Source: Stachybotrys elegans (taxonomy: Eukaryota > Ascomycota > Sordariomycetes > Hypocreales > Stachybotryaceae). Taken from it: a stretch of 64,000 nucleotides of DNA. This document shows, in pieces, positions 20,687 through 23,049 of the stretch; positions within the stretch are counted from its first letter, which is position 1; each line of letters begins with the position of its first letter. Under the pieces are notes generated by a model, which was not told the DNA's origin, made no database searches, and saw nothing but the letters and a program-made list of their open reading frames with translations. The stretch spans positions 620,001 to 684,000 of the forward strand of contig JAGPNK010000007.1 in NCBI GenBank assembly GCA_020746835.1, given 5' to 3'. Position numbers and translations under genes: made by a program.

Positions 20687-22228
20687 ATGGCTCCCTACAA
20701 CCTTCGAAGTGCCACGCGCACCACGCCATCAAGCAATGCTGAAGTGGCCGTTGAACAGACAGCTCCGCCCAGGGTTACAGGTATGGTTGTGGCGAGGATT
20801 GAGAACATCCTCGAGTCTGTTCTGGATGGTTTCTCTCGGGCGGATGAAGTCAGAATCGAGTTCAAGTCGCGCAAGAGCATGCGCCGGCGAGTGGGCACCG
20901 CCTCGACTTCCCAACAAGAATACATCCTGTTCCCTGGTCGCACAGTGCATGAGGCCAAGCGGTTCGGTATGATCAGCGCCCACAACGCTTCGCAGATTGG
21001 TTTTAACCTGGACCAGCCCGAGTTCTCCTTATCCTGCAGCTTTCGCACGATGCTCTCGTATCTGGCACCGTGCTCACGAAGCGGTTGGCACGCCTCTTCA
21101 CATCAGAGTTGGGGTATGTATTGCTGATCACTGTTCTATCTTAGCCATATATTCTATCAACACCAAGACTTGTTCGAAAAGCAGCGGAATGTTGATGAGC
21201 TGGTCGACGATATCGCGTTTACACTTGGTGTAAATCGCCATGATCTCAACATTGTGAGTATGCGTGACCGGAAAGTGGTCTACACTAACGAGATAGGCTG
21301 CCGCGCCTAAGGGCCATATTATAGGGCTTTTGAAGCTCAAGCTTCTTGATGAAGCGGTGGTAGATATGTCTCTCGGGACGTTGGTAAGTGATACCTGCTA
21401 TACCGAATACATGTCTGACTGGCCAGGGCACCACAATTCCCGAGATGAGTTCGGTTACAGATATGGACTTTGGTACTACTAGATAGGCTCTAGTAGTCGA
21501 GAAAGAGGTAGCCGTCCTGTGGTCTCCAGCAGGTAGTAGTTCTAACATCCCTAGGCCGTATTCCGATCGCTGTCATCATCGCAGTTTTGGCGCACCTCCA
21601 CGTCTGGTCCCGGGTTAATCGTCACGGTCAGTACTTTAGGAGAATTGGCACTTTGAGCGGTCAGACTAAGCATGACCAGGCCAAAGGTTATCCGGACATG
21701 GCTACCCTCTCCTTCCTCCGAGAAGTACACCGGAGAAAGCCAGAGATGCCCATACTCGCGCTCGTGGATTTTGACCCTGACGGCCTGAATATTTTTCGAT
21801 GCTACAGATATACATCGGAGCAGCAAATCCTGCAGCCGTACCCAACGAACCCGGCGGTTCAGCTACTAGGAATTGGTGCGAGCCAAGTCCTGGAAGAAGA
21901 CTCGCCGACAAATGGAACCGGTCCACAAGATGATTTTGACAACAACCGAGCTTCTGATAATAGAATCAACACCAAGGTCTCGGTGTCGTCTGTATCATGC
22001 CGGGATCCCTTTTTACATCTCACGGGGAGAGATCGAAAGTTGGCCGTGAGCACCCTGCAAAGGTTGGATGATGTCGTTCCGGAAGATGACGAGGCAACGC
22101 ATATCAGGAGGGAGCTCCAGGTAATGCTGATGATGGGCGTCAAGGTCGAAATTCAATGGCTCGATGACTCGGGAAATCTCTCAGACTGGCTTGACAAGAC
22201 GATCAGCAACGTGATGGCTTCGAGATAA
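20687..22228 (+). CDS. SPO11: Meiotic DNA double-strand-break transesterase SPO11 with in-frame UAG
   Basis: Topoisomerase VI-A-like enzyme that starts meiotic recombination. Exons: 20687-20966, 21017-21083, 21145-21253, 21297-21383, 21427-21507, 21555-21626, 21680-22228; all phases close, total 415 codons. The catalytic Tyr is Tyr120 in RHIFYQHQDLF. Toprim metal ligands are Glu206 in ALVVEKEA and Asp262/Asp264 in LVDFDPDG; GYPDMATLSFL precedes them. Codon 201 (21484-21486) is TAG where DFGTTR-x-ALVVEKE should hold an aromatic residue, usually Trp in fungal homologues. Unless edited or read through, the product would be 200 aa without the Toprim domain. The frame is otherwise intact, which argues against an old pseudogene. 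The donor at 21084 is a weak GTTGGC; using GTATGT at 21114 instead would leave a 31-nt intron. Confidence 0.85.
21475..21497 (+). promoter_or_regulatory. Perfect 9-bp hairpin with the SPO11 UAG in its loop (candidate RNA-editing site)
   Basis: Bases 21475-21483 (ACTACTAGA) and 21489-21497 (TCTAGTAGT) are exact reverse complements. The 5-base loop 21484-21488 is TAGGC, so the premature stop is the first three loop bases and its A (21485) is the second. A U before the target A and a hairpin-loop location are the known preferences of fungal sexual-stage A-to-I mRNA editing. Editing would turn UAG into UGG, Trp. Confidence 0.6.
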
Positions 22229-22389: not shown

Positions 22390-23049
22390 ATGGCTCCCCA
22401 GCTCACAGAAGATGAGATCGATGATCTGGTGTACTTTTCACGAACGGGCGAGGATGAGGATTTGATCTCGACGCTGACGGCCTTGGCCGAGCGAGAAAAA
22501 GTATCGCCCGCTGAAATTCTTCTTGCCGCAAAAGATGAGGGCAAGTCGACGTGTTTACACATGGCCACGGGCAACGGCCATTTGGGTAAGTCTTTGGCCT
22601 CTTTTGTACAATTTTGCAGAGCCCGAGATGTCTGAGCACCCGGGCTCCAGGGGCTGATAATATGAGCTAATCCAAGTCAAGGGACGGTGCAAAAGCTGGT
22701 GGCATACTTCGAGGGCCGACCCAAAGAAGAGAAGCAGACGTACCTGGACGAGGCCAACGAGCACGGCAACACGGGCATGCACTGGGCCGCCCTTGGTGGA
22801 CACCTAGAGACGGTCAAGTTTTTGTTGGACCAGGGGGCGTCGCCCGCCCTGGCCAACGAGCGAAACTATGTGCCGTTGGACCTGGCCAACTTCAACGACA
22901 AGGCCGAGGTGGCGCGCTACTTCCTTTCCTTCTCCGGGATGCTGGAGGACAAGAACCAGGAGAGCGGGCTCAGCAGTGCGGCAGAGAAGGTCAGCCTTGA
23001 TGAGGGAGAGGAGGAGGACAAGGGCGAGAAGGCCGGCAAGGAGCCCTGA
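22390..23049 (+). CDS. YAR1: Ankyrin-repeat protein, YAR1-like
   Basis: Small ankyrin protein resembling yeast Yar1, the dedicated chaperone that escorts ribosomal protein Rps3 into the nucleus. Exons 22390-22585 and 22682-23049 give 187 aa. The intron 22586-22681 ends in an AAG acceptor, chosen because it is the one that keeps phase and gives NGHL-GTVQKLVAYF. Ankyrin units seen: STCLHMATGNGHLGTVQKL; NEHGNTGMHWAALGGHLETV; and NERNYVPLDLANFNDKAEV. The tail is acidic and lysine-rich (EGEEEDKGEKAGKEP), like Yar1. The assignment to YAR1 rests on length, repeat count and tail; another small ankyrin protein is possible. Confidence 0.75.

Follow-up and report, generated by a model that had tools for sequence, protein, structure and literature searches.

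Introduction

The closest described systems are the genes of Fusarium graminearum in which A-to-I mRNA editing corrects a premature stop codon. This premature-stop-correction (PSC) editing is established for PUK1, whose stop is a tandem one, and for 69 further genes, among them the meiosis genes AMA1 and SPO22 (PMC4817773). The Sordariomycetes are the class with most of the reported genome-wide fungal A-to-I editing (PMC11156358). The fungal machinery favours U at position -1 and a hairpin loop (PMC4817773, PMC9600606), A or G at +1 (PMC4817773, PMC11156358, PMC9600606) and A or G at +3, although replacing G by C at +3 eliminated editing at only one of two F. graminearum sites (PMC11156358, PMC9600606). 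Ame1 is the activator of fungal mRNA editing, in which MV500-501, E546/R548 and D589 are needed for contact with Tad3 (PMC11087585). Conserved PSC sites are also reported to cause false introns in genome annotation (PMC11169179).

Here we describe SPO11 of Stachybotrys elegans (Hypocreales, Sordariomycetes), found in a 64,000-nucleotide stretch of contig JAGPNK010000007.1 (the window). Like the PUK1-type PSC genes of F. graminearum, it has an in-frame UAG with U at -1 in a hairpin loop, a false intron in the public annotation and an expected sexual function; unlike those genes, for which editing is reported, it is a candidate identified from the genome sequence. With AMA1 and SPO22 it has in common that a meiotic gene carries a premature UAG, but AMA1 acts on the anaphase-promoting complex and SPO22 on synapsis, whereas SPO11 makes the initiating break. 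A further parallel is Fusarium CHE1, whose stop extends across close Fusarium species and was recognised through annotation failures, although editing of CHE1 takes place in hyphae and its product is a zinc-finger protein (PMC11169179). SPO11 may thus add to the known PSC-edited class of PUK1, AMA1 and SPO22, the notable points being the identity of the gene and a stop that may recur at the same codon. Among the papers listed by full-text literature searches, none was seen to report the SPO11 site; the word SPO11 is absent from the main text of PMC4817773, as is the term 'RNA editing' from PMC11423578 and PMC5509106. The supplementary PSC lists for F. graminearum and Neurospora crassa may hold an entry, and the novelty of SPO11 as a PSC gene is provisional.

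Results and Discussion

The SPO11 gene is intact apart from one stop codon

The SPO11 gene model comprises seven exons (20687-22228) and 415 codons, with one internal stop and a terminal TAA (Table 1). Tyr120, Glu206, Asp262 and Asp264 are all present in the translated model, and the intact frame of the original prediction is borne out. When the stop is translated as X, the product scores above the cut-offs of Pfam TP6A_N (E = 1.6e-22) and Spo11 Toprim (E = 5.6e-24) and also matches three solved Spo11 or TopVI-A sequences; it therefore has both domains, the catalytic tyrosine and the Glu and Asp metal ligands of the SPO11/topoisomerase VI A family. A profile search with TP6A_N found a single place in the S. 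elegans genome, giving one detected SPO11. The branch motif [CT]T[AG]A[CT] is present in five of the six introns, with its A 8-17 nt before the acceptor.

Table 1. Features of the SPO11 locus, in window coordinates.
Feature	Position	Strand	Basis
SPO11 exon 1	20687..20966	+	also in the window model that reproduces P0001
SPO11 exon 2	21017..21083	+	gene model, Pfam match
SPO11 exon 3, catalytic Tyr120	21145..21253	+	gene model, profile match
SPO11 exon 4	21297..21383	+	gene model
SPO11 exon 5 (81 nt), TAG and first metal ligand Glu206	21427..21507	+	gene model
False intron of P0001 (82 nt), jumps the TAG and drops Glu206 and the VVEKE motif	21473..21554	+	exact reproduction of P0001
5' arm of 9-bp hairpin	21475..21483	+	pairing computed
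In-frame TAG, SPO11 codon 201; candidate edited A at 21485	21484..21486	+	
3' arm of 9-bp hairpin	21489..21497	+	pairing computed
SPO11 exon 6	21555..21626	+	gene model
SPO11 exon 7, Asp262 and Asp264, terminal TAA	21680..22228	+	gene model

The stop at codon 201 sits between the TP6A_N and Toprim domains, and since it separates the two, an unedited product lacks Glu206, Asp262 and Asp264. This UAG is the one interruption of a reading frame that is intact elsewhere, as in a PSC gene, and UGG at this codon would restore a conserved tryptophan. This lone TAG at a Trp site is a stronger observation than the hairpin around it.

The best database hit is the public S. elegans protein (P0001), which the window reproduces letter for letter once the 82-nt intron of Table 1 is removed and intron 6 is kept as coding sequence. 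The deposited model is wrong around codon 201 and is without the first metal ligand; false introns of this type are also on record for PUK1-like genes and CHE1 (PMC4817773, PMC11169179). A number of Fusarium SPO11 models look wrong at the same place.

Nothing downstream of the stop appears to have decayed. At positions invariant in 22 of the 98 Trp-bearing relatives described below, S. elegans SPO11 keeps 29 of 30 residues on the N-terminal side of the stop and 38 of 38 beyond it. Across residues 203-290, it is 65-66% identical to three Trp-bearing relatives, which are 58-69% identical to one another; the corresponding values for residues 291-414 are 35-41% and 37-45%.

The TAG lies in the loop of a stable hairpin

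The predicted 9-bp stem with a TAGGC loop is real, having pairing probabilities of 0.92-1.0 in 101, 201 and 401 nt of spliced coding sequence. As an argument for editing, it is weaker than first stated, because the local amino-acid context favours a stem. When the surrounding sequence was recoded synonymously (20000 recodings with each of three codon tables), the A fell in a loop in 57-62% of cases, a 9-bp stem was reached in 529-635 (∼3%), and loop and energy together were matched in 434-1170 (2-6%). The window has 954 TAGs, counting both strands; 272 of them have their A in a hairpin loop, five (SPO11 included) have a contiguous stem of at least 9 bp, and 42 lie in a loop with a 61-nt energy as low as or lower than that of the spliced 61 nt at SPO11. 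Dinucleotide-shuffle z-scores for the energy at the site were unremarkable, at -1.6 (43 nt), -0.4 (63 nt) and 0.0 (103 nt). The hairpin is thus a moderate departure from chance. A21485 has U at -1, G at +1 and a loop position, which fits the published fungal preference; its +3 base is C, outside the preferred A or G, which is a preference and not a requirement. Back-translations that assumed TAG placed the A in a hairpin loop in 1811 of 2000 cases for F. graminearum and 1112 of 2000 for F. irregulare, although these were uncontrolled and carry little weight.

Codon 201 in related fungi

Two protein searches (the best 120 of 238 and the best 120 of 242 matches) gave 136 SPO11 proteins, P0001 included, in which the site was read by motif pattern as the residue directly before [IVFAL]L[VI]VEK. 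Among these 136 matches listed, 98 have Trp, six have an intron junction at the site and 32 are unreadable in frame; no other in-frame residue was found. That the UAG stands where Trp is expected, as originally claimed, is therefore well founded.

The proposed alignment of relatives also asked whether the codon is TGG elsewhere, and for eight proteins the annotations indicate that it apparently is not. In six, from S. chartarum (P0003) and Fusarium (P0029, P0039, P0044, P0046 and P0049), the annotation places an intron junction immediately ahead of [I/V]LVVEK. No GT-AG intron could have its 3' end at or inside a TGG codon in this position, so the codon is apparently not TGG in these proteins, and it is NAG if the join falls on a codon boundary. 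For the other two, F. graminearum P0098 and F. irregulare P0088, which are counted among the 32 unreadable proteins, the annotation runs through the motif in a shifted frame, and the resulting peptide allows TTG, TCG or TAG at the codon but not TGG. Two further off-frame proteins, P0112 and P0119, fit either TGG or TAG, and the remaining off-frame pattern matches lie elsewhere in the protein or are unusable. Provided that the assumptions hold and that both species share the codon, NAG in F. culmorum combined with THG in F. graminearum leaves TAG.

Other models are missing the stretch containing this Trp. It is absent from all three S. chartarum proteins among the matches listed, each in a different way, and from all those listed of three Fusarium groups, to which we presume the proteins belong: seven of the sambucinum group, five of the incarnatum-equiseti group and four of the tricinctum group. 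Several Trichoderma models and F. musae P0117 also skip the exon although annotations of their kin show Trp, and a skipped exon is for this reason weak evidence for a stop when taken alone.

Together, the annotated proteins hint that S. chartarum and several Fusarium species have something other than TGG at this codon, possibly TAG. Paramyrothecium foliicola (P0010), from a genus that we take to be in the same family as Stachybotrys, has Trp at the site, and on this reading the stop either arose at least twice or was lost repeatedly. One explanation is that SPO11 is a recurrent target, in which the same Trp codon became UAG independently in Stachybotrys and in much of Fusarium since a sexual-stage editing gate is advantageous; we hold this tentatively, at slightly less than even chances. 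If it were true, the genomic SPO11 would be unable to act outside the fruiting body.

A probable editing activator and other stop-bearing genes

Three DUF726 genes were found in the S. elegans genome. In one of them (L021, G000:C45:1636500-1639500), the residues M, V, S, E, R, D and H are spaced exactly as positions 500, 501, 531, 546, 548, 589 and 629 of FgAme1, a match of seven out of seven made by spacing to the published positions. The paralogues L019 and L020 are without M-V, E and R at these positions, and L021 is probably AME1, judged on this residue pattern. Of the 120 database matches listed for the L021 exon, 64 were readable at the M-V site (37 M-V, 14 K-N and 13 others) and 56 were unreadable; the query was one exon, and full-length proteins fell outside its length window. 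The genome also has deaminase-domain matches, none of them assigned to Tad2 or Tad3.

A Cbk1-like kinase gene (L030, G000:C1:2089200-2092200) contains TAGTAG at C1:2090450-2090455, reading D-TAG-TAG-S where yeast Cbk1 has D-WW-S. It is probably the PUK1 orthologue, having been compared with Cbk1 directly and with PUK1 through its published tandem stop. As a control, 136 kinase matches were collected from the genome, of which 27 list stops, 43 in total. Eighteen of these 43 stops are without a candidate intron, many of them at the end of the stretch where the script could not see one, and the stops inside the stretches of L056, L061 and L071 look by eye like unspliced inserts. On visual inspection, the tandem TAGTAG of match L073 is the single case that breaks a contiguous conserved motif. 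One stretch (L072, G000:C12:2411640-2411993) carries two in-frame TGA codons, has no candidate intron and resembles a degenerate copy.

The genome matches to HORMA, SPO22 and DNA methylase are free of stops within the matched stretches; for SPO22 this differs from F. graminearum, where the gene is PSC-edited (PMC4817773).

Probable PSC editing and the alternatives

We consider it highly probable that codon 201 of SPO11 is a PSC editing site. The candidate editing event of the original prediction is well supported by the comparative evidence: Trp in relatives, an undecayed downstream sequence, a probable AME1, a kinase with a tandem stop, and signs in S. chartarum and several Fusarium species that the codon is something other than TGG.

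A young pseudogene, made by a recent nonsense mutation in a lineage or isolate that gave up meiosis, would need no special cause, as TGG to TAG is a single G-to-A transition. A young stop also leaves no trace: in neutral simulations (500 runs at each distance), the gene gained on average 0.7 further stops at 0.02 substitutions per site, and 46% of runs gained none. The genome scan found no match for Mnd1, which would fit a loss of meiosis. It found none for MATalpha either, but that profile was silent in every control and is hence uninformative, and strains of one mating type lack MATalpha; eight HMG boxes were matched, none of them assigned to a mating-type gene. Rejecting a pseudogene depends on an old stop and hence on S. 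chartarum, where P0003 is apparently also without TGG and SPO11 is 54% identical to that of S. elegans. If the stop is as old as the split between these species, a neutral gene would have gained ∼3 to 6 more stops (3.3 at 0.1 and 6.2 at 0.2 substitutions per site, with 3.4% and 0.6% of runs free of them). Stop-free HORMA and SPO22 stretches, and the retention of the probable AME1 and the tandem-stop kinase, also speak against abandoned meiosis, and we regard this explanation as unlikely. A sequencing or assembly error in a genome that truly reads TGG concerns only a single base, but it has to contend with independent S. chartarum and Fusarium genomes in which annotation avoids the same place; P0001 avoids the stop too, but as a product of this assembly it cannot confirm the base independently. 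Such an error is the least probable of the explanations considered.

The stop could instead be removed by splicing, with the AG of the TAG serving as an alternative 3' splice site of intron 4, or with exon 5 skipped. Both options keep the frame, both kinds of join exist as annotated models in relatives, and FgBUD14 combines PSC editing with alternative splicing (PMC11156358). At the S. elegans locus, however, the stretch 21427-21486 contains no match to the branch motif [CT]T[AG]A[CT], and four other AGs precede the one in the TAG, whereas the normal intron 4 acceptor is preceded by CTGAC, the A of which is 8 nt away. Skipping exon 5 loses Glu206, and use of the TAG as acceptor deletes a G..IP segment present in the relatives compared, which together make a splicing solution very improbable. 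Translational readthrough or a suppressor tRNA would give the full protein without any RNA change. The tandem UAGs that replace Trp codons in another gene point, however, to a Trp-specific route. We also know of no readthrough context in which UAG is followed by GCU, and decoding of this kind is, if anything, slightly less probable still.

Editing of SPO11 would proceed as follows. Without it, translation ends at residue 200 and the Toprim domain is absent, a truncation that follows from the sequence itself. In the course of sexual development, A21485 in its hairpin loop would be deaminated by the tRNA deaminase Tad2-Tad3 together with Ame1, its activator, and the edited UIG would be decoded as UGG (Trp) to give full-length SPO11. 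Were the full protein made only in sexual tissue, Spo11 activity would likely be confined there, which would amount to the 'developmental lock on double-strand breaks' of the original prediction.

Genetic data are available for the F. graminearum Rec12/Spo11 orthologue, FgWING12. Its deletion leaves perithecia normal, while spore number, septation and nuclear distribution are abnormal, with three-septate ascospores at 61% in the wild-type, 58% in the complemented strain and 13% in the mutant (PMC11423578). FgWING12 is therefore needed for normal ascospores, which indicates that a SPO11 with, apparently, a codon other than TGG is functional in sexual development. On complete medium the growth of the mutant was normal, but on minimal medium it was not (PMC11423578), a defect that does not fit a purely sexual role of SPO11.

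SPO11 makes the breaks that initiate meiotic recombination. If the full-length protein exists only where its mRNA is edited, the initiation of recombination depends on the editing machinery, and ectopic breaks would be prevented at the level of the code. To our knowledge, there is no described sexual state for S. elegans; a mould of this kind that keeps an editing-dependent meiotic gene would offer a testable sign of hidden sex. Many public Hypocreales SPO11 models would also be wrong if the editing is true.

Directly downstream of SPO11, at 22390-23049 of the window, lies a gene that by eye resembles an ankyrin-repeat gene. In Ophiocordyceps and F. avenaceum (P0069, P0112 and P0120), SPO11 is annotated as fused to ankyrin domains, and the fused part is perhaps this same neighbour.
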